Shown: one piece after another, positions 8,279-28,524 of the stretch
Position numbering within the stretch: the stretch's first letter is position 1
How the letters are laid out: each line of letters begins with the position of its first letter
From: a virus
Virus record (IMG/VR): IMGVR_UViG_3300022205_000010
Coordinates: 1 to 28,524 of that record
Length of the DNA: 28,524 bases
Direction: 5' to 3' (one strand)
The notes under the pieces: generated by a model
Told to the model about the DNA's origin: nothing
Seen by the model: only the letters and a program-made list of their open reading frames with translations
Database searches by the model: none
Program-made: the position numbers and the translations under genes

Positions 8279-8614
8279 TTATGCCTTAAACTCTAAGCAC
8301 TCTACTTCATCCGGTAAAACGCAAGGCGTCAGCCCGCGTTCTTTTGCGGTCGGTTGTGTTTGATCAAAAAGACGCGCCGTGATAGAGTACCAACCAGGCA
8401 CAGTAATGTCTCCTTTGAGGATCAACAAAGTAATAATCCCGTTATCAATCGAAACACCGCCCCCTAAAAAACTATATGTTACCGAGAGCGTGCCTGTTGC
8501 TTTGTCAGTTAGTGTAATCACTAAATCTGAAACATCCCCTGCAACAAAACCGCTTTTTGGGTTCAGTATGATGTCGACATCTGTATTTACGTATATTTTC
8601 TCCGCGCAATCCAT
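8279..8614 (-). CDS. Small beta-sandwich-like phage protein (baseplate/tail accessory)
   Basis: A 111-aa protein with a GGGAG site upstream of ATG. The sequence (VDIILNPKSGFVAGDVSDL, VITLTDKATGTL, then WYSITARLFD) alternates polar and hydrophobic residues as in the N-terminal Ig-like domains of phage baseplate upper proteins. A scaffold or adaptor for the long beta-helix protein encoded immediately upstream is plausible. This is an inference from pattern alone. Confidence 0.5.
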   Translation of the reverse strand: MDCAEKIYVNTDVDIILNPKSGFVAGDVSDLVITLTDKATGTLSVTYSFLGGGVSIDNGIITLLILKGDITVPGWYSITARLFDQTQPTAKERGLTPCVLPDEVECLEFKA

Positions 8615-8642
8615 AATAACTCCCGCCTATGAAACATATATT

Positions 8643-17834: not shown

Positions 17835-19412
17835 TTAAGCCGCCATGTACGAACCGCGCCCCGCGTTTTTACCAAGCCCCAACTTATCGCGCCAGCCCTT
17901 TTCTTTTTTCCTTTTCAAAGGGCGCGGCGCTTCGTGCTTAAGACATAGCTCAACGCCCCAAGCCAAACTGTCAACCCGATCGTCGTGTGTACCTGACGGA
18001 AACCGCAACATTTCGCGCTTCGTTGCGTCATACCAAACACCAGTTTCATTAAAAACCACCATGCCTTGTTGCAGCCGTCCTTGCAACGGAGCAGCGCGTA
18101 CTTTTTTGTCTGTTATCGGTTTAAGTACTTCGATCGGAGGGTAGTATTTACGCCGCCGCATCTCCTTCTTCAGCGTAGCTTGCAAAGTGCGCCATATCTG
18201 GCCGTCCTCAAACCCCAAGATCATCGACTTATGATCCCATTTCTGCGCCAGATCCAATATCGCGCTCACCATACGGTAAGCATCCCCCGTTTTAAACGAA
18301 ACTTGCTCCGCAACATACAGCATGTCCTCATCGTCATGCAACAACACTGTGCCGACGGTAAAATCGTTCGCTTGCTTGGTAGAAATCGCAAAATCCCATG
18401 TGCTCCTAACCGTAAAGTTCTTAGTCCATGGTAACGGACCTCTCTTGAACATATCCTTCGTAAAGAACGCTCCGTCTTCGGGCACCGGGTTTTGTTGATA
18501 CAACGCCGCCCAAAACTTCGGGCTAATTGTGCGCTTGATCTGTTTGAGTCGCTTAAGATCAAAACGCTCAGGATGAAGCGCCTCTCCTTCGCGGCGAAGC
18601 AATTCGTGTTTAGCTAAGTCGGGCTGATCGTCACTGGGCGCAGCACGAATAATTTCAAACGTTTCTTTGTTCAAATACTCATTGCTTTCTGCTATAGCTG
18701 GGTACTTAACAATCTCAAACCTATCCGATTCAGCGTCATCCTCCATGGCCTGTTGTAATCGGCCAGCCAGATCGTCGTCGTGCCACCATGTCTGGATAAC
18801 CAACACCCCTCCGCCCGGAGCAAGACGCGTGTAGGCCGTAGAGCCATACCAATCCCACAAACTCTCGCGCACGCCAGCACTCTCGGCATCTTCACTGTTC
18901 TTTATCGGGTCATCGATGACTAAGCAGTTCGCGCCCTTACCAGTAATGCCGCCGCCAACACCGGCTGCTACATAAGCCCCGCCCTGTATAGTTCCCCACT
19001 CGTCGTTCGACCTGTTCTCTGGGTCTAGCCTTGTCTCAAACACAGACTGGTAATCTGGCAAGTCCATCAAGTTCTTTATCTTCTTGCTAAACCCGATCAT
19101 CAAACTAATATTATACGCCGCGCAGATAAACTCGTGGTTCGAATAACGCCCTAAGTGCCACGGCGGGAACATTTTACTCGCAAGCTCGGACTTTCCCGCA
19201 CGCGGAGGCATCAATAACATCAAACGAGGGGACCTCTGGTTGGCAACATCATCTGAAAACCGCTCTAGTCGTTTACAAATGTCTTTATGCACCCAACCGG
19301 CTGCGTACAATGGGTTCATTCTTTCGACAAAAGGCAGAAACCTACGCTTCGCCATAAGACGGCTAGCTAGTTCTACCTCGGCTGCTGCCGTGATGTCTTC
19401 TAGGTTACTCAT
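17835..19412 (-). CDS. terL: Terminase large subunit
   Basis: A 525-aa packaging motor and nuclease. Walker A is PPRAGKSE at residues 69-76 and Walker B is CLVIDDP at 163-169. A coupling-type motif LVIQTWWHDDD lies at 204-214. The RNase-H-like nuclease acidic residues fit Asp340 (STWDFAIS), Glu402 (GFEDG) and Asp477/Asp481 (HDDRVDSLAWG). ATG 19412 is chosen over TTG 19433 because GAGG sits about 9 bases upstream and it overlaps the TerS stop by only 8 bases. It cuts concatemers and pumps DNA through the portal encoded next. Confidence 0.9.
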   Translation of the reverse strand: MSNLEDITAAAEVELASRLMAKRRFLPFVERMNPLYAAGWVHKDICKRLERFSDDVANQRSPRLMLLMPPRAGKSELASKMFPPWHLGRYSNHEFICAAYNISLMIGFSKKIKNLMDLPDYQSVFETRLDPENRSNDEWGTIQGGAYVAAGVGGGITGKGANCLVIDDPIKNSEDAESAGVRESLWDWYGSTAYTRLAPGGGVLVIQTWWHDDDLAGRLQQAMEDDAESDRFEIVKYPAIAESNEYLNKETFEIIRAAPSDDQPDLAKHELLRREGEALHPERFDLKRLKQIKRTISPKFWAALYQQNPVPEDGAFFTKDMFKRGPLPWTKNFTVRSTWDFAISTKQANDFTVGTVLLHDDEDMLYVAEQVSFKTGDAYRMVSAILDLAQKWDHKSMILGFEDGQIWRTLQATLKKEMRRRKYYPPIEVLKPITDKKVRAAPLQGRLQQGMVVFNETGVWYDATKREMLRFPSGTHDDRVDSLAWGVELCLKHEAPRPLKRKKEKGWRDKLGLGKNAGRGSYMAA

Positions 19413-20091: not shown

Positions 20092-20300
20092 GAGCGAAGA
20101 ATACCACAATGTGATTAGTGGAGTACACTTAAATCGCATTGTACCTCGTGCTCCGTGCGGGGGGTTCTTTTTCTGGTAAAAAATTTTCTGAAAAAATTTT
20201 GTTATGTACCGTCGCGCGACACCCCTCCCCGGCAACGGGAGAAACCACACCCCACTTCGGATTCGCGTTTTTTAAAGTCAAAACCAAAACCGCTCGAAGC

Positions 20301-21853: not shown

Positions 21854-22666
21854 ATGAAAAAGACTAATACAAAACCAACAGTTATAAACCACCCAACAAA
21901 AGATGCAGCAAAAAATCTAAATGTTGTGGATCTGGTGTGTGACCCATCCAAAAGTGATGATGAACGGCGATTAGGAATTAAAGTCGCTGTTAACGCAGTC
22001 ACATCTCAAATTGTCAGTAACTCTCTGGCATTAGCCAGAAAGAAAACAGAGTTATTGCCAGAGGAACCAACACTAGACCTGCGAAACGAGCAAGACATCA
22101 ACGCAGAACCACGTGCGGTTCCATACGGATTTGAAGAACCTGTAGATCGTGCAAAATTACTAAATCAGCTTGTTACTTTACGAGCTGATCTTATTAAAGA
22201 GTATGACCCTTTAATAAGATTTGCCGAGATAAACATGGTGCAAAACAAATTTGATCTACTGTTAACACCAGCGCAATTTTTAGAATTTCGAATTAAAACG
22301 GCTGGTGAAGTAAACATCAACGCAATCAAGCGAGGTGTTGAAATGTTCAATGAACCAGAAGACCTAGTACGCCAAATCATGATAGAAGACGCACGGAAGC
22401 AAAAAGCTAATCTGGTTGCGTTAAAAGATGAAACTTTAGACATCATGAATGATGCAATTGAAAGTTCATCTGATTCAGGCGAACCAAGCGCTATTTTTGA
22501 CTCTCTAATTGACGATGTAAAAATCGCTATTAAAGACAGAATAGCAGATAAAATAAACGCCGAATATCAGCGTTTATTCCCAATAGTTTTAAGAACCGGG
22601 AACCTTGAAATGTCAAGTCTGATGACGCTTTATAAAGCAATGTTTGAAGAAATTAAAGCTTTATAA
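21854..22666 (+). CDS. Phage protein of unknown function (270 aa)
   Basis: AAAAGGAAAT precedes ATG 21854. The protein is soluble, acidic and mostly helical. The N-terminus is low-complexity and basic (MKKTNTKPTVINHPTKDAAK). Later segments include DERRLGIKVAVNAVTSQIVS, then DRAKLLNQLVTLRADLIKEY and NEPEDLVRQIMIEDARKQK. I see no nucleotide-binding, nuclease or HTH motif. It is the only mid-sized gene of the plus-strand region and its base composition is intermediate between the virion block and the array. Replication accessory or structural function cannot be separated here. Confidence 0.65.
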   Translation: MKKTNTKPTVINHPTKDAAKNLNVVDLVCDPSKSDDERRLGIKVAVNAVTSQIVSNSLALARKKTELLPEEPTLDLRNEQDINAEPRAVPYGFEEPVDRAKLLNQLVTLRADLIKEYDPLIRFAEINMVQNKFDLLLTPAQFLEFRIKTAGEVNINAIKRGVEMFNEPEDLVRQIMIEDARKQKANLVALKDETLDIMNDAIESSSDSGEPSAIFDSLIDDVKIAIKDRIADKINAEYQRLFPIVLRTGNLEMSSLMTLYKAMFEEIKAL

Positions 22667-22848: not shown

Positions 22849-22946
22849 TGCAACTCTGCTTTAAAAAACCCGTAATCTTATTAGTGGTAACACTATAAAC
22901 AGTGGGGTTATTTCAGAACACTATAAGTTCTTGAAAACAAAAGAAT

Positions 22947-23207
22947 GTTCCAAAACTTCGGAACACCTTTAAAATTTCGGAACAGCTTGAAACACCCACC
23001 AATAAACACATCCAGCTACTTTTGTTCCAATGTTCCAAAATTCTTCGTACTAGCTATACACGAGGGAGATTTTTTTATATTTATTTTTATTTTTATATAT
23101 ACAATTATTTAACTATATTTTAGAACATTGGAACAATTATATATAAGTATATAATAATAAAGAAAAAAAGCTGTTCCAAAGTTGTTCCAAAGTTGTTCCG
23201 ATGTTCC
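22947..23207. repeat. Cluster of GTTCC(A/G)A(A/T) elements, putative operators or iterons
   Basis: Ten copies of GTTCC or its complement lie at 22947, 22960(-), 22979(-), 23024, 23032, 23130(-), 23173, 23184, 23195 and 23203. Five are exact GTTCCAAA. The first two form an inverted pair around 8 bases, and the copies at 23173, 23184 and 23195 are spaced 11 bases, one helical turn. Fewer than one such 5-mer would be expected by chance in this length. This is a protein-binding array: repressor operators or initiator iterons. Confidence 0.65.
23128..23155 (+). promoter_or_regulatory. Putative promoter of the paralogue array
   Basis: TTGGAA (23128-23133) and a perfect TATAAT (23150-23155) are separated by 16 bases. 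The -35 box overlaps one GGAAC element and four GTTCC elements lie just downstream of the predicted start near 23162. Binding there would block initiation, so this looks like a repressible early promoter with a leader of about 105 nt. Confidence 0.5.
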
Positions 23208-23240
23208 AAAATAAACCTAAAAAACACTGTTTAAGCCTTC

Positions 23241-23258
23241 GTCCTTAGCACGAAGTAC
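23241..23258 (+). promoter_or_regulatory. Shared 18-nt leader motif, copy 2
   Basis: GTCCTTAGCACGAAGTAC matches the copy at 20326-20343 except for one base and ends 8 bases before the first array start. Here CTTAG and CTAAG flank the motif core and could form a small stem. Confidence 0.5.
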
Positions 23259-23266
23259 TAAGTAAA

Positions 23267-23572
23267 ATGTACAAGAAGTATAATAAATGGCGTAGAAATA
23301 TAATGAAAAACACCCGGAAAGATGAAAAAAGAACACTAAACTCGCAAAAAAAAGTCGCTGAAGCGAGAGATTTCGCACGTAAAGCCATACATAACCACTA
23401 TAATTTTACTGAAATCTATAATCCTACCCCCCAACAATGCTTAGAATATTTACATTTTCCGACTAAAAATCACCTCACACGCATAACTTTAAAATCTAGA
23501 ATGCGTAATATTCCTGAAAAACACCGTGAATTTTGTGAAATACAATTAAAATTAGAAGGTTTATGGCCATAA
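23267..23572 (+). CDS. Array gene 1: founding/longest single-domain member (101 aa)
   Basis: The first gene of the array and the only one with a long basic N-terminal extension (residues 1-45, Lys/Arg-rich, including KKVAEARDFARKA, like type C). The core is NPTPQQCLEYL at 52-62 with Cys58, and NIPEKHREFCEIQLKLEGLW at 81-100 with His86 and Cys90. It ends GLWP instead of GLL, so it does not create an overlapping start; 48 bases separate it from gene 2. An internal ATG at 23303 is an alternative start; neither has a strong ribosome-binding site. Confidence 0.75.
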   Translation: MYKKYNKWRRNIMKNTRKDEKRTLNSQKKVAEARDFARKAIHNHYNFTEIYNPTPQQCLEYLHFPTKNHLTRITLKSRMRNIPEKHREFCEIQLKLEGLWP

Positions 23573-23620
23573 AAACTACCCTTAATAAACAATAAACCCT
23601 ATAAAAACTGAAAAATTATT

Positions 23621-23803
23621 ATGTCATACGCTAAATTTCATAAGCTTAAAAATCCTAACGCTCAACAATGCCTAGAATATCTACATATAGAAATTAAATA
23701 CCCTTTTCTTACAAATATGATTTTAGAAAATAGATTAAGTCACATTCCTAAAGAACATCGCACGTTTTGCGAAGCTCAACTAAAGCTTGAAGGTTTATTA
23801 TGA
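23621..23803 (+). CDS. Array gene 2: type A, 60 aa
   Basis: A compact type A member: FHKLKNPNAQQCLEYLHIEI with Cys17, then HIPKEHRTFC with His46 and Cys50. The middle combines the IEIKYP front also seen in gene 7 with the NRLS back seen in gene 6, which suggests mosaic origin. Its final codons carry the start of gene 3 (ATGA). Confidence 0.8.
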   Translation: MSYAKFHKLKNPNAQQCLEYLHIEIKYPFLTNMILENRLSHIPKEHRTFCEAQLKLEGLL

Positions 23804-24051
23804 CATCCATTACAACGCATACTACTTGGACTCAATACAAACAAGCTCGCAAAGAATTTATTGCTATTAACAAACCTACTATACAACAATGTTTAAAATA
23901 TTTACGAGTTAAAACTACTTATTTTAATGAATCAGATCTAATAGCTACAAATGTTCTTGTTGGCAATACAGATCTAACGCAAGATTACTATGTTCCTAAA
24001 GAACATCGCGCCTTTTGTAGAACTCAATTAAAGCTCGAAGGACTATTATGA
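23800..24051 (+). CDS. Array gene 3: type C with enlarged variable middle (83 aa)
   Basis: The N-terminus TTWTQYKQARKEF is nearly repeated in gene 11. Cys31 lies in QQCLKYLRVK, His69 and Cys73 in VPKEHRAFC. The middle is about ten residues longer than in gene 11 (NVLVGNTDLTQDYY), the longest of all copies. Start overlaps gene 2. The end supplies AAGGA and ATG for gene 4. Confidence 0.8.
   Translation: MTSITTHTTWTQYKQARKEFIAINKPTIQQCLKYLRVKTTYFNESDLIATNVLVGNTDLTQDYYVPKEHRAFCRTQLKLEGLL
24024..24050 (+). promoter_or_regulatory. Typical array junction: C-terminal codons act as ribosome-binding site and start
   Basis: Representative of 15 junctions. The codons for QLKLEGLL contain AAGGA (24038-24042) 5 bases before the ATG (24048) whose bases also make the TGA stop. 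The same DNA therefore encodes a conserved peptide tail and the initiation signal for the next gene. Confidence 0.75.
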
Positions 24052-24245
24052 CTAAAAACGAACGTTATAAAATTAATTGCATGTTTATCGACGAATTTAA
24101 AAAAATAAAAAACCCAACTGCAGAACAATGCTTATTATGGATAATAAGTTATCCTAGATTCATCAGAGTAAACCAATTAAAACACATTCCTGAAGAGCAC
24201 CGTAATTTTTGTGAAGCTCAATTAAAATTAGAAGGATTAATGTAA
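24048..24245 (+). CDS. Array gene 4: type B, 65 aa
   Basis: A type B member with Cys28 in AEQCLLWI, His51 and Cys55 in IPEEHRNFC. The N-terminus (MTKNERYKINCMFIDEFKKI) has an extra Cys11. It ends LEGLM-TAA: the final ATG is followed directly by a stop, so the coupling seen elsewhere is broken, and gene 5 starts after a 20-base spacer. Confidence 0.8.
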   Translation: MTKNERYKINCMFIDEFKKIKNPTAEQCLLWIISYPRFIRVNQLKHIPEEHRNFCEAQLKLEGLM

Positions 24246-24265
24246 CTAAAAGACTAAACATTATT

Positions 24266-24448
24266 ATGACCCCTATTGAATTTCGTAAACTTAAAGATCC
24301 TAGCATTCAACAATGTTTAAAATATTTACATCTAAAAATTACATATCCTTTATTCCCAGATATAGTTTTAAGGGCCAGAATAGAACGCATTCCTGAAAAA
24401 CATCGTAAATTTTGTGAAACTCAATTAAAGCTAGAAGGATTACTATAA
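24266..24448 (+). CDS. Array gene 5: type A, 60 aa
   Basis: First of the 203-bp series. FRKLKDPSIQQCLKYLHLKI with Cys17; ARIERIPEKHRKFC with His46 and Cys50. Its front (HLKIT) matches gene 6 and its back (RIERIP) matches gene 7. The spacer before it is open in frame, reading back TKRLNII, as in genes 6-8. Confidence 0.8.
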   Translation: MTPIEFRKLKDPSIQQCLKYLHLKITYPLFPDIVLRARIERIPEKHRKFCETQLKLEGLL

Positions 24449-24468
24449 TCAAAAAATTAAAAACCATC

Positions 24469-24651
24469 ATGACACACGATAAATTTTTCAGACTCAAAGA
24501 TCCTAATATCCAACAATGTCTAGAATACTTACATCTAAAAATCACCCCCTCTCTTTTTACAGATGTGGTTTTAAAAAATAGATTAAGTTACATTCCTGAA
24601 AAACACCGTGAACTTTGCAGAATACAATTAAAGCTTGAAGGATTACTATAA
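24469..24651 (+). CDS. Array gene 6: type A, 60 aa
   Basis: FFRLKDPNIQQCLEYLHLKI with Cys17; NRLSYIPEKHRELC with His46 and Cys50, where Leu replaces the usual Phe before Cys. The middle is TPSLFTDVVLK. The stop is TAA in place of TGA, so no ATGA overlap forms and gene 7 begins 20 bases later. Confidence 0.8.
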   Translation: MTHDKFFRLKDPNIQQCLEYLHLKITPSLFTDVVLKNRLSYIPEKHRELCRIQLKLEGLL

Positions 24652-24671
24652 CTAAGAAGCTAAAAATTATT

Positions 24672-24854
24672 ATGACACGTACTGAATTTCGTAGACTTAG
24701 AAATCCTAGCATTCAACAATGCTTAGAATATTTACATATAGAAATTAAATATCCTTTACTTGCAAGTAGAATTTTAAAAGTTAGAATAGAACGTATTCCT
24801 GAAAAACATCGTGAGTTTTGCAAAATACAATTAAAGCTTGAAGGATTACTGTAA
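24672..24854 (+). CDS. Array gene 7: type A, 60 aa
   Basis: FRRLRNPSIQQCLEYLHIEI with Cys17; RIERIPEKHREFCKIQLKLE with His46 and Cys50. The middle pairs a gene-2-like front (IEIKYP) with a gene-5-like back. Ends CTGTAA, again without an overlapping start. Confidence 0.8.
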   Translation: MTRTEFRRLRNPSIQQCLEYLHIEIKYPLLASRILKVRIERIPEKHREFCKIQLKLEGLL

Positions 24855-24874
24855 CTAAGAAGTTAAAAATTATT

Positions 24875-25057
24875 ATGACACGTGCTGAATTTTACAACCT
24901 CAAAGATCCTAGCATTCAACAATGCTTAGAATATTTACATATAAAAATTTTATACTCTTCATCTTCAGATATAGTTTTAGCAAACAGAATGAAACGCATT
25001 CCTGAAAAACACCGTGAATTTTGCAGAATACAATTAAAGCTTGAAGGCTTATTATGA
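24875..25057 (+). CDS. Array gene 8: type A, 60 aa
   Basis: FYNLKDPSIQQCLEYLHIKI with Cys17; RMKRIPEKHREFC with His46 and Cys50. The middle is Ser-rich (LYSSSSDIVLANR), different from its neighbours. It is the last of the 203-bp series and returns to the ATGA junction with gene 9. Confidence 0.8.
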   Translation: MTRAEFYNLKDPSIQQCLEYLHIKILYSSSSDIVLANRMKRIPEKHREFCRIQLKLEGLL

Positions 25058-25251
25058 CCGAAGATGAACGTGAAAAAATCTACTGGATGAGTGCGGATGC
25101 ATTTATGAACATAAAAAACCCAACCTTAGAAACATGCTTAGTGTGGCTACGCAGCTACCATAAAAAATTCAGACCAGAGCAATTAAGGTACATCCCTATA
25201 GAGCACCGTGAACTTTGCAAAATACAATTAAAGCTTGAAGGATTACTATGA
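25054..25251 (+). CDS. Array gene 9: type B, 65 aa
   Basis: MTEDEREKIYWMSADAF opens it; Cys28 lies in LETCLVWLRSY (Thr in place of Gln before Cys), His51 and Cys55 in IPIEHRELC. The front of the middle (SYHKKFRPEQL) resembles that of the first domain of gene 13. ATGA overlaps at both ends. Confidence 0.8.
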   Translation: MTEDEREKIYWMSADAFMNIKNPTLETCLVWLRSYHKKFRPEQLRYIPIEHRELCKIQLKLEGLL

Positions 25252-25475
25252 ACGCAGATGAAATACTTACTCATTTTGGAAAACATATTGTTGAAATTAC
25301 TGACCATAAAGAATTATATAAAACACCCTATAAATTTCGTACACCTGATGTATGCATAGCATTTCTAAAAGGGTTGCGTTTTTCTGTAAATCGTAATCAT
25401 TACATTAATGTTTGGGTTCCTAAAAAACATAGGGAGTTTTGTAAAACACAATTAAAACTCGAAGACTTACTATGA
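25248..25475 (+). CDS. Array gene 10: divergent member, 75 aa
   Basis: The N-terminus (MNADEILTHFGKHIVEITDH) resembles no other copy, and RTPDVCIAFLKGL replaces the NPTxxQCLxxLR motif, with Cys36. The C-terminus VPKKHREFCKTQLKLE is fully typical (His61, Cys65). It ends LEDLL, which weakens the ribosome-binding site for gene 11 to GAAGAC. Confidence 0.8.
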   Translation: MNADEILTHFGKHIVEITDHKELYKTPYKFRTPDVCIAFLKGLRFSVNRNHYINVWVPKKHREFCKTQLKLEDLL

Positions 25476-25675
25476 CACGTGATACTTGGCCTCAATATAA
25501 ACAAGCTCGCGATGAATTTACTATTATTGCTAACCCTACTAAACAACAATGTTTAAAATATTTACGAGTTAAAGTTATTTTTTTTAGCAAGTCAAACCTA
25601 ATGGAAAATTGTTATATCCCTATAGAACATCGTGAGTTTTGCAAAATACAATTAAAGCTCGAAGGGCTGTTATGA
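25472..25675 (+). CDS. Array gene 11: type C, 67 aa
   Basis: TWPQYKQARDEF and KQQCLKYLRVK are near-copies of gene 3, but the middle lacks the ten extra residues. Cys27, His53 and Cys57 are present, plus an extra Cys47 in MENCYIP. ATGA overlaps at both ends. Confidence 0.8.
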   Translation: MTRDTWPQYKQARDEFTIIANPTKQQCLKYLRVKVIFFSKSNLMENCYIPIEHREFCKIQLKLEGLL

Positions 25676-26043
25676 CTGAAGAAGAACACAATAAATTTTA
25701 TTTTATGGGCGATTATGCATTTACTAGAATAAAAAACCCAACCGCACAACAATGTTTAGCTTTTTTACGAGGATACAAAACTGACAAAGCAAAACCTATC
25801 CATTTAACCAATATTCCTGAAAAACATCGCACCTTTTGTAAAGCTCAAATAAAGATGGACTTACAACTACTCGAAGAAACACCAACACCAACACCAATAC
25901 CAACACCAATACCAACAGCAGAACAATGCATGGTATGGTTACGTAACTATCCTAATTACGCTAGAGTAAGACAATTAAGATACATCCCTAAAAAACATAA
26001 AGAATTTTGTAAAGCACAGTTAAAGCTCGAAGGACTGTTATGA
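25672..26043 (+). CDS. Array gene 12: two fused domains with Thr-Pro linker (123 aa)
   Basis: ATG 25672 overlaps the gene 11 stop; the longer frame merely reads back into gene 11. Domain 1 has Cys28, His52 and Cys56, and ends AQIKMDLQLLEE in place of QLKLEGLL. Domain 2 has Cys86, His109 and Cys113 and lacks the N-terminal helix. The linker TPTPTPIPTPIPT (residues 70-82) comes from a simple ACCAAC/ACCAAT repeat at about 25880-25918. It is type B at the start. Confidence 0.8.
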   Translation: MTEEEHNKFYFMGDYAFTRIKNPTAQQCLAFLRGYKTDKAKPIHLTNIPEKHRTFCKAQIKMDLQLLEETPTPTPIPTPIPTAEQCMVWLRNYPNYARVRQLRYIPKKHKEFCKAQLKLEGLL

Positions 26044-26390
26044 CAAGAGATGAGTATGCTATATTTTATTTTATGACCTCTTCTATATTCACCAAGATAA
26101 AAAACCCAACTACAGAACAATGCCTGGTATGGCTACGTAGCTATGGTAAAGAATTCAGATCAAGCCAATTAAATTATATCCCTGAAAAGCATCGCAAATT
26201 TTGCGAAGCTCAAATAAAAATAGACTTACAACTATCAAAATCACCAATAACAACAACACTAACAGTAGAACAATGCATAACATGGTTATACAATTATCCT
26301 AAACACATTAGAATAAAACAATTAAAGCGCATCCCTAAAAAGCATAGAGAATTTTGTAAAACACAATTAAAGCTTGAAAATTTGCTATGA
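26040..26390 (+). CDS. Array gene 13: two fused domains (116 aa)
   Basis: Cys28, His51 and Cys55 in domain 1; Cys79, His102 and Cys106 in domain 2. Domain 1 ends AQIKIDLQLSKS, the same derived junction as gene 12, so both descend from one fusion. Its linker is short (PITTTLT), without the Thr-Pro expansion. It ends LENLL, giving a weak site before gene 14. Confidence 0.8.
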   Translation: MTRDEYAIFYFMTSSIFTKIKNPTTEQCLVWLRSYGKEFRSSQLNYIPEKHRKFCEAQIKIDLQLSKSPITTTLTVEQCITWLYNYPKHIRIKQLKRIPKKHREFCKTQLKLENLL

Positions 26391-26587
26391 CAAAAAAAGA
26401 ATATTACACTTTTTATAATATGAACTTTACAGAATTTAAAAAGCTTCAAAACCCAACAGCAGAACAATGTTTAATTTTTTTACGGGGGTATACTAATAGC
26501 AGAGATCGTATAAATATGGTGCATGTTATACCTTCAAAGCATAAAGAATTTTGTAAAACACAGTTAAAACTCGAAAGCTTATTATGA
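26387..26587 (+). CDS. Array gene 14: type B, 66 aa
   Basis: MTKKEYYTFYNMNFTEF start; Cys28 in AEQCLIFLRGY; His52 and Cys56 in IPSKHKEFC (Lys in place of Arg). The middle TNSRDRINMVHV is unlike the others. It ends LESLL, where Gly to Ser removes the AAGG core of the next site. Confidence 0.8.
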   Translation: MTKKEYYTFYNMNFTEFKKLQNPTAEQCLIFLRGYTNSRDRINMVHVIPSKHKEFCKTQLKLESLL

Positions 26588-26766
26588 AAAAACGTATAAC
26601 TATTGCCGAATTCTACAAAATACCAGATCCAACAATAGAACAATGTTTAGCGTTTATTCGAACCTACGAACGTGAATCATGGCGTCGCTTTCTAATAATA
26701 AAATATGTTCCTGAAAAGCATCATGAATTTTGCATAACACAATTAAAGCTCGAAGGGTTATTGTAA
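26584..26766 (+). CDS. Array gene 15: type A relative, 60 aa
   Basis: MKKRITIAEFYKIPDPTIEQ: it begins directly at the overlap ATG, and its KKRITIAEF matches the stop-free spacer plus start of genes 6-8 (TKKLKII-MTRxEF). Cys21, His46 and Cys50 (VPEKHHEFC, His replacing Arg). It ends with TAA and a 41-base spacer follows. Confidence 0.8.
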   Translation: MKKRITIAEFYKIPDPTIEQCLAFIRTYERESWRRFLIIKYVPEKHHEFCITQLKLEGLL

Positions 26767-26807
26767 TTATAGAAAACACCAAATGAAAATATATTTAAAA
26801 AATCATT

Positions 26808-27002
26808 ATGACTAAAACCGAATATGAAAAGTTCTATTATATGGAGCCCCCACAATTCGAAGAAATAAAAAACCCAACCGCAGAACAGTGCTTAGTTTTT
26901 TTACGGGGGTTCGGTAAATGCAACGCACTACATTATCAGCATCTTATCCCTAAAAAATATCGCGCTGCTTGCGAAACACAATTAAAACTTGAGGGTTTGT
27001 AG
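26808..27002 (+). CDS. Array gene 16: type B lacking the conserved His, 64 aa
   Basis: Cys28 and Cys55 are kept, but KHREF is KYRAA, so Tyr51 stands where His is expected. There is an extra Cys38 in GFGKCNA. The protein stops one residue early (LEGL-TAG), which destroys the overlapping start. Gene 17 starts 9 bases later. It may be a decaying or specialised copy. Confidence 0.75.
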   Translation: MTKTEYEKFYYMEPPQFEEIKNPTAEQCLVFLRGFGKCNALHYQHLIPKKYRAACETQLKLEGL

Positions 27003-27011
27003 TAACAAAAA

Positions 27012-27239
27012 ATGAGTAATTTTTACATGCTTAAAAATCAAAATAGATGGAAAGAATACACAATAGCACATAGTAAATTTTTAAATATAGACAACCCCAC
27101 CCCCCAACAATGTTTAGAGTACTTACGCCTTATTAACACATTTAATTTTAATTGGGCACTCCTCTACAATATAAAATATGTTCCTGAAGAACATCGCGCT
27201 TTCTGTGAGACACAATTAAAATTAGAAGGTTTGCTATGA
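27012..27239 (+). CDS. Array gene 17: type C, 75 aa
   Basis: RWKEYTIAHSKFLNIDNPTP is the type C opening in diverged form. Cys34 in QQCLEYLRL; His61 and Cys65 in VPEEHRAFC. The middle is aromatic (NTFNFNWALLYNIK). It regains the ATGA junction to gene 18. Confidence 0.8.
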   Translation: MSNFYMLKNQNRWKEYTIAHSKFLNIDNPTPQQCLEYLRLINTFNFNWALLYNIKYVPEEHRAFCETQLKLEGLL

Positions 27240-27436
27240 CTGAAAAAGAATATGAAAAATTCTTCGTAATGGGATCTAATACTTTCCACAATCTACAGAA
27301 CCCAACGGCAGAACAATGCTTAGCTTTTTTACGAGGGTATAGAAGCCAGTTAAGCCTTAAAAAGGTAGATGAACACATCCCTAAAAAACATCGCGAATTT
27401 TGCAAAGCCCAATTAAGATTAGAAGGTTTATCATGA
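27236..27436 (+). CDS. Array gene 18: type B, 66 aa
   Basis: MTEKEYEKFFVMGSNTF; Cys28, His52, Cys56. The middle is RSQLSLKKVDEH. It ends LEGLS (TCATGA), showing that the last codon can change as long as ATGA is kept. Confidence 0.8.
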   Translation: MTEKEYEKFFVMGSNTFHNLQNPTAEQCLAFLRGYRSQLSLKKVDEHIPKKHREFCKAQLRLEGLS

Positions 27437-27636
27437 CAAAGAACATTACTTTGCACGAATACGTAGCCGTAAAAAAAAATTTTTTAGAACTTCATAACCC
27501 TAACCCACAACAGTGTTTAGATTTTTTACGTGAGTGTAAATCAGTACTACTACTTCATCATCATATACGAACATACATCCCTAAAAAACATCGTGCATTT
27601 TGCAGAACACAATTGAAGCTCGAAGGCTTATTATGA
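27433..27636 (+). CDS. Array gene 19: type C, 67 aa
   Basis: ATG 27433 overlaps the gene 18 stop; the longer frame would read back into gene 18. LHEYVAVKKNFLELHNPNPQ is type C-like. Cys28, His53 and Cys57, with an extra Cys35 and a His-rich middle (LLLHHHIRTY). Confidence 0.8.
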   Translation: MTKNITLHEYVAVKKNFLELHNPNPQQCLDFLRECKSVLLLHHHIRTYIPKKHRAFCRTQLKLEGLL

Positions 27637-27830
27637 CCGAAAATGAATACGAAACATTTTATTATATGGGGAAAACAAGATTCGCAAAATTAACAAACCC
27701 AACCTTAGAACAATGTTTAGTATGGTTACGCAGTTATAAAACAGAAATTATACCCCAACGAATAAATTATATTCCTAAAAAACACCGAGAGTTTTGTAAA
27801 ATACAATTAAAGCTCGAAGGCTTGTTATGA
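27633..27830 (+). CDS. Array gene 20: type B, 65 aa
   Basis: MTENEYETFYYMGKTRF; Cys28 in LEQCLVWLRSY, His51 and Cys55 in IPKKHREFC. The middle is KTEIIPQRINY. First unit of an exact 194-bp series with genes 21 and 22. Confidence 0.8.
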   Translation: MTENEYETFYYMGKTRFAKLTNPTLEQCLVWLRSYKTEIIPQRINYIPKKHREFCKIQLKLEGLL

Positions 27831-28024
27831 CTGAAAAAGAATATAAAGATTTTTATTATATGGAGGAATTAGAATTTAAAAGTGTTAAACACTTAACAGC
27901 AGAACAATGCTTAGCTTTTTTACGAGGATACGAACCCTATTTAGATATAAATGATTTACAAAGAATACCTGAAAAGCATCAGGAATTTTGTAAAATCCAA
28001 TTGAAGCTCGAAGGCTTGTTATGA
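27827..28024 (+). CDS. Array gene 21: type B, 65 aa
   Basis: MTEKEYKDFYYMEELEF; the usual KNPT is KHLT, removing the helix-capping Asn-Pro, and HREFC is HQEFC. Cys28, His51 and Cys55 remain. The middle is EPYLDINDLQR. ATGA overlaps at both ends. Confidence 0.8.
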   Translation: MTEKEYKDFYYMEELEFKSVKHLTAEQCLAFLRGYEPYLDINDLQRIPEKHQEFCKIQLKLEGLL

Positions 28025-28218
28025 CTGAAGAAGAATACAATATATTTTATTCTATGGGTGTATATAAATTTACCCAGATAAAAAATCCAACAGCAGCACA
28101 ATGCTTAGCTTTTTTACGAGGTTATGAAAAAGAAATAAATTTTTCGCGTTTAATTGACATCCCTAAAAAACATCGTGAATTTTGCATGACACAATTAAAA
28201 CTAGAAGGCTTACTATGA
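28021..28218 (+). CDS. Array gene 22: type B, 65 aa
   Basis: MTEEEYNIFYSMGVYKF; Cys28 in AAQCLAFLRGY; His51 and Cys55. The middle is EKEINFSRLID. Close to the type B consensus and a good representative for structure prediction. Confidence 0.8.
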   Translation: MTEEEYNIFYSMGVYKFTQIKNPTAAQCLAFLRGYEKEINFSRLIDIPKKHREFCMTQLKLEGLL

Positions 28219-28433
28219 CTGAAGAAGAATATAAAAAATTTTTCATTATGGGCGCTTGCACTTTCCGTGAATTAAAAAACCCAACTGCGGAACAGTGTTT
28301 AGCTTTTTTACATTACTACATCCTTAACAAAGGCGGGTATACTATACCTGAAGCACTTGAATTTATCCCCGAAAAACAGCGTGAATTTTGCAAGTCTCAA
28401 TTAAAATTAGAAGGGATTGATATCGATGAATGA
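28215..28433 (+). CDS. Array gene 23: type B with altered ends, 72 aa
   Basis: MTEEEYKKFFIMGACTF with extra Cys15; Cys28 and Cys59 kept, but the His is Gln55 (EKQREFC). The middle is longer (ILNKGGYTIPEALEF). The C-terminus is LEGIDIDE, four residues longer than normal, so it overlaps the next start by 8 bases in place of 4. Confidence 0.8.
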   Translation: MTEEEYKKFFIMGACTFRELKNPTAEQCLAFLHYYILNKGGYTIPEALEFIPEKQREFCKSQLKLEGIDIDE

Positions 28434-28524
28434 AGAAAAAATAATCAATAAAATCAAAAAAGATTTTTATGACTATCATTATATTGAACGCCCTACAGTT
28501 CTAATGTGCCTTACTTATTTAAGA
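28426..28524 (+). CDS. Array gene 24: divergent member, cut by the window edge
   Basis: ATG 28426 overlaps the previous stop and the frame is open for 33 codons to the end of the window. RPTVLMCLTYLR near the end matches NPTxxQCLxxLR with Cys28 at the type B position, so the array continues to the right. Confidence 0.65.
   Translation, partial: MNEEKIINKIKKDFYDYHYIERPTVLMCLTYLR

Follow-up and report, generated by a model that had tools for sequence, protein, structure and literature searches.

Why would a phage carry some two dozen or more diverged versions of one small gene side by side, and what might their products do? Phages are short of genome space, so that giving nearly 6 kb to one small-protein family implies strong selection. 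The window analysed here is a complete IMG/VR record of 28,524 bases, representing a fragment of the virus. A preliminary description of this sequence had reported an unrecognised tandem array of at least 24 paralogous phage genes, all intact, that ran off the window. We followed the array to its end, searched for relatives of the encoded family, predicted its fold and examined selection across the copies.

The array and its gene organisation

Within the window, the array comprises 23 complete ATG-started ORFs of 60–123 codons, all on the plus strand, and a twenty-fourth that begins close to the window end and passes it (Table 1), in agreement with the earlier count and with an array that continues beyond the record. 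ORFs 12 and 13 are two-domain fusions, and the window therefore holds 25 domain copies. Repeat detection recovered a 73-nt core 25 times in the array, while a single copy used as query returned 25 matches in the window with no internal stops, a recurrence far beyond chance. The GC content of the array is ~30%, against ~47% in the structural region. To our knowledge, an array of this size is unusual for a podovirus.

We aligned 29 domains, comprising the 25 from the window and four from an overlapping contig (locus L009, described below). Four columns are invariant (C28, P48, C55 and Q58, copy 22 numbering) and the His of the HRxFC motif is present in 26 copies, so the constant cysteines and near-constant histidine noted previously hold across the larger set. 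ORFs 2 and 5–8 form a subgroup of 60 aa with a short N-terminus.

Table 1. Coordinates of the array and adjoining features in the window
Feature	Position	Strand	Remarks
Non-coding stretch before the array, GTTCC/GGAAC-rich	22850–23266		10 sites, ~1 expected at window average density
Array	23267–28433	+	23 complete ORFs, 25 domain copies
ORF 1	23267–23572	+	101 aa; longest and basic N-terminus, pI 10.1
ORFs 2–8	23621–25057	+	
ORF 5	24266–24448	+	Inside the 203-nt unit (24248–24450) missing from L009
ORFs 9–11	25054–25675	+	
ORF 12	25672–26043	+	Two fused domains, Pro/Thr-rich linker
ORF 13	26040–26390	+	Two fused domains
ORFs 14–23	26387–28433	+	Mostly coupled by ATGA overlaps
ORF 24, start	28426–28524	+	Runs off the window; complete in L009 at 8406–8615

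The genes are closely packed, with 4-nt ATGA overlaps at 15 of the 22 ORF junctions. An AAGG-type site lies 4–10 nt before the ATG in 12 of the 23 ORFs, where it is built from Glu-Gly codons in the conserved C-terminal tail of the preceding gene; among the 83 other ATGs of the array, 4 have such a site. ORFs 5–8 are each preceded by a 20-nt spacer and have no Shine-Dalgarno site. No strong terminator stood out inside the array, and no Rfam families were found in the region. Translation is probably coupled off one early transcript, where ‘early’ is read solely from gene position. A ribosome-binding site embedded in the preceding gene would be a simple reason why whole units can come and go without breaking expression.

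Repeats were also observed near the array. The non-coding stretch immediately upstream holds six TGTTCCAAWGTTCC-like matches, where 0.44 would be expected in the whole window, and judged by this composition it may contain candidate operator sites or an origin region. Separately, AGCACGAAGTAC-like repeats occur 12 times in the window (allowing up to 2 mismatches) against 1.8 expected, including those at 20141, 20332, 21313 and 23247; two copies are exact, one of them lying directly before ORF 1.

The end of the array and a difference in copy number

Contig IMGVR_UViG_3300022221_000282 (loci L009, L014 and L123) overlaps the window from position 18488. Across the ~10 kb of overlap, L009 is identical to the window, with no substitutions, except that the single 203-nt unit containing ORF 5 is absent. 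Past the window end, L009 carries four further intact copies, followed by a broken remnant and a primase-like ORF, and completing the contig in this manner, as had been proposed, places the end of the array at ~9340 of L009, directly before the primase-like gene. The whole array, from the window and L009 together, comprises ~27 ORFs (29 domains) and one remnant in ~5.9 kb. The remnant (L009 9246–9340, E 0.01, one TAA) is a truncated last copy, in which one copy's N-terminal start is fused out of frame to a CxxQxKLE-like C-terminal end. The statement that all copies are intact thus stands for every copy within the window and fails for this one at the edge.

At the junction, the flanks of the missing unit have only a very short identical run in common, which speaks for genuine recombination rather than a collapse during assembly. 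Should the difference nevertheless be an assembly artefact, the array would be static, which is compatible with any function. Both forms come from metagenome contigs, but the identity at the junction falls far below the usual assembler word length and the remainder of the overlap is identical; we regard an artefact as very unlikely. That two viruses differ by one gene and are identical in all else suggests that the array is a diversified toolkit able to change.

The carrying phage and its genomic slot

The portal, terminase and major head protein encoded in the same record match PHROG head and packaging families. The assignment of the paralogues to a phage is supported. Among named phages, the nearest relatives are KPP25 and phiR18 of Pseudomonas, with 46% identity in the portal and 35% in the primase-like protein, and by homology the carrying phage is a KPP25-related (Kochitakasuvirus-like) podovirus, a description that makes no claim to membership of the genus. 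In KPP25 and phiR18 (Kochitakasuvirus) this slot is also filled with many small early genes, but they contain no member of the array family and no comparable paralogue array in the stretch examined.

Among IMG/VR relatives that retain both ends of the slot, the closest (L021, portal 55% identical) encodes a membrane protein and a primase-like protein at those ends (40% and 34% identical to those of the window phage, respectively). Between them, ~2 kb holds proteins of 132 and 247 aa, a small possible RHH protein and an HTH protein, and the family profile detected no array-family member in L021. Because L021 keeps the slot ends without the array, these records point to an insertion or expansion specific to the lineage. 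A 270-aa protein upstream (21854–22666) was also considered as a synteny anchor with L021, for which BLASTP gave no support.

Family searches and predicted fold

Sequence searches of Pfam, PHROGs, NCBIfam, PADLOC and the PDB gave chance-level matches only, of which the PADLOC result says little because its content is defence, not anti-defence, proteins. No relatives were found by tblastn in phages and plasmids, scans of GTDB species genomes found no family members, and IMG/VR scans with different members and alignments matched only the contig of L009. The family profile found nothing in 46 related records, many of which are fragments, so that absence from those viruses is not proven. We found no description of such an array in the part of the literature covered. 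The family is new to the databases searched, as its earlier labelling as unrecognised implied, and the kind of locus, a lineage-specific tandem paralogue array, is already known.

Using the family alignment, AlphaFold2 predicted a single domain of five helices (mean pLDDT 91.8, pTM 0.75). The fused ORF 13 was modelled as eight helices forming one helical unit (pLDDT 92.7, pTM 0.82), with its second domain covered by few aligned rows. Foldseek and VIA-align returned no strong structural match; the highest Z scores (single domain 4.0, with 9a67, FliF-YlxF; fused pair 3.2, with the MgtE N-domain) may reflect common helical packing only.

Comparison with DUF4116

DUF4116 (PF13475) was tested as a possible relative because weak Foldseek matches, to proteins of giant viruses at E 1.8–6.3, carried that name; both of our models are all-helical and confident. 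DUF4116 has been modelled earlier as an alpha-solenoid (PMC8078820). The Pfam DUF4116 model matched none of the 29 members at E up to 1, leaving all below the curated cut-off, and a family search of the whole record found no DUF4116. Using hhalign, the family profile scored 22.7 against 22-aa DUF4116 units, compared with at most 15.5 for 400 column shuffles and at most 15.9 for 255 natural windows of unrelated phage proteins, with NPTxxQCLxxLR...LxxIPxKHREFCxxQLKLEG aligned across two 22-aa units. This signal was gone against a small set of 25-aa units, and only one of the four subgroups scored above shuffles alone. The resemblance to DUF4116 appears weak, offering a lead rather than membership.

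A DUF4116 consensus query found repeat proteins in Pseudoalteromonas phage vB_PtuP_Slicky01 that Pfam confirmed as DUF4116 (2.3e-23). This phage has three paralogous DUF4116 ORFs, annotated as hypothetical, in its early region (L111 16667–18979; OQ508958.1 52666–54978). Relatives in IMG/VR carry long ORFs of 22-aa units, and a 170-kb viral contig has three nearby DUF4116 repeat ORFs (L116 3557–5925), one with ~16 very similar 22-aa units. The DUF4116 proteins of Slicky01 and several IMG/VR contigs resemble the array family in having Cys in a similar motif (TPEICLAAVKQNG versus TAEQCLAFLRGY) and possibly in being helical repeats, and in Slicky01 the paralogous ORFs likewise cluster in a podovirus early region. 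They differ in Cys-Cys spacing, which is 22–25 residues in DUF4116, whereas each array domain has one Cys-bearing segment pair ~27 or more residues apart rather than 22–25-residue repeats in series; the array family also has one module per cistron and no member that reaches the Pfam model.

Selection and duplication history

The proposal that selection acts on the proteins was supported across the copies, with pN < pS in every paralogue pair and dN/dS of ~0.26–0.6 in the closest pairs; synonymous change is near saturation for most pairs. The core codons are under purifying selection. For the C-terminal block KLEGLL, pS is 0.80 and pN is 0.16 (pN/pS 0.20). Recent gene conversion behind this conserved tail was ruled out, as its synonymous sites are as diverged as those elsewhere, and the tail is thus conserved as protein. 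The middle of the domain, described earlier as variable, is indeed so at the protein level: the helix 3–4 loop has a pN/pS of 1.07 when all copies are counted, and the subgroup that is least saturated (ORFs 2 and 5–8) gives 1.20 for the loop against 0.31 for the core. These loop values near 1 may indicate relaxed rather than diversifying selection.

Identity drops with the separation of copies (Mantel r −0.30, p 0.0002), and neighbours more alike than distant copies are expected from local tandem duplication. Nearest paralogues are 50–70% identical, so the expansion is not recent overall.

Possible functions of the array

Our preferred reading, held tentatively and at somewhat less than an even chance, is that the array encodes small early proteins that bind host proteins, a set that has been duplicated locally and diversified and may serve counter-defence. 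We infer the binding of host proteins, which the preliminary description had also suggested. The ~27 genes would constitute one co-oriented, largely overlapping early operon of all-helical mini-proteins, generated through successive local tandem duplications in the slot that lies between the early genes and the primase-like gene. The conserved core would act as a scaffold, with the variable N-terminus and helix 3–4 loop as recognition surfaces. Made early in infection, such binders would act on a number of host proteins, or on variants of a single one, and their most plausible role would be in host take-over or counter-defence; while duplication would supply new binders, deletion would trim those unused.

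A precedent for part of this scheme is phage T4, which overcomes toxIN by tandem amplification of tifA, the gene for an 85-aa early inhibitor, via short microhomology (PMC9391042). A small early protein, tandem units and recombination at short microhomology are common to both; the tifA copies are identical and recent, whereas the ~27 ORFs here are diverged, with differing N-termini and loops, and the identity of nearest paralogues falls below that of near-identical tandem copies. This divergence also weighs against simple dosage, in which many copies would provide more of one activity as in T4: the tandem architecture and the difference in copy number between the window and L009 are what dosage would produce, but copies this far apart are not a recent amplification, and we consider dosage quite improbable. 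A near-neutral expansion, or filler sequence that recombination maintains while most copies have no particular role, would suit an AT-rich region, a lineage-restricted family, a broken remnant at the array edge and the loss of one copy without other change. We think this very improbable, since all 23 window ORFs are intact despite their divergence, no pair departs from pN < pS, and loop and core show opposite pN/pS patterns. A set of binders fits better than either dosage or filler because a constant scaffold is combined with a variable N-terminus and loop, and because many diverged intact copies occupy an early slot and change in number.

The products might alternatively assemble into one mixed structure, each cistron supplying one module of a helical solenoid, as if a repeat protein had been split into separate genes. 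In favour of this, ORFs 12 and 13 each join two modules directly in one chain, and the model of the fused pair is a single confident unit. The profile of the whole family is also similar to pairs of 22-aa DUF4116 repeats, above all controls, and long single ORFs of such repeats exist in other viruses, some in tandem. Against it, most units in the array form ORFs of their own, each with its own start and with N-termini that differ, and the profile link is lost with 25-aa DUF4116-type units and stays within the range of shuffles in three of the four subgroups; we judge a shared structure of this kind rather unlikely.

An extension of the binder reading, which we consider rather unlikely, would make the array a modular repertoire: ~27 single-module helical binders kept as separate cistrons and directed at many host or defence proteins, in effect a viral version of a variable binder library. 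As the conserved tail often carries the next start signal, duplication, deletion, fusion and diversification could proceed without breaking the operon. Should the copies bind distinct host proteins, the array would offer a natural set of inhibitors ready for use, and would show directly how a phage diversifies such proteins.
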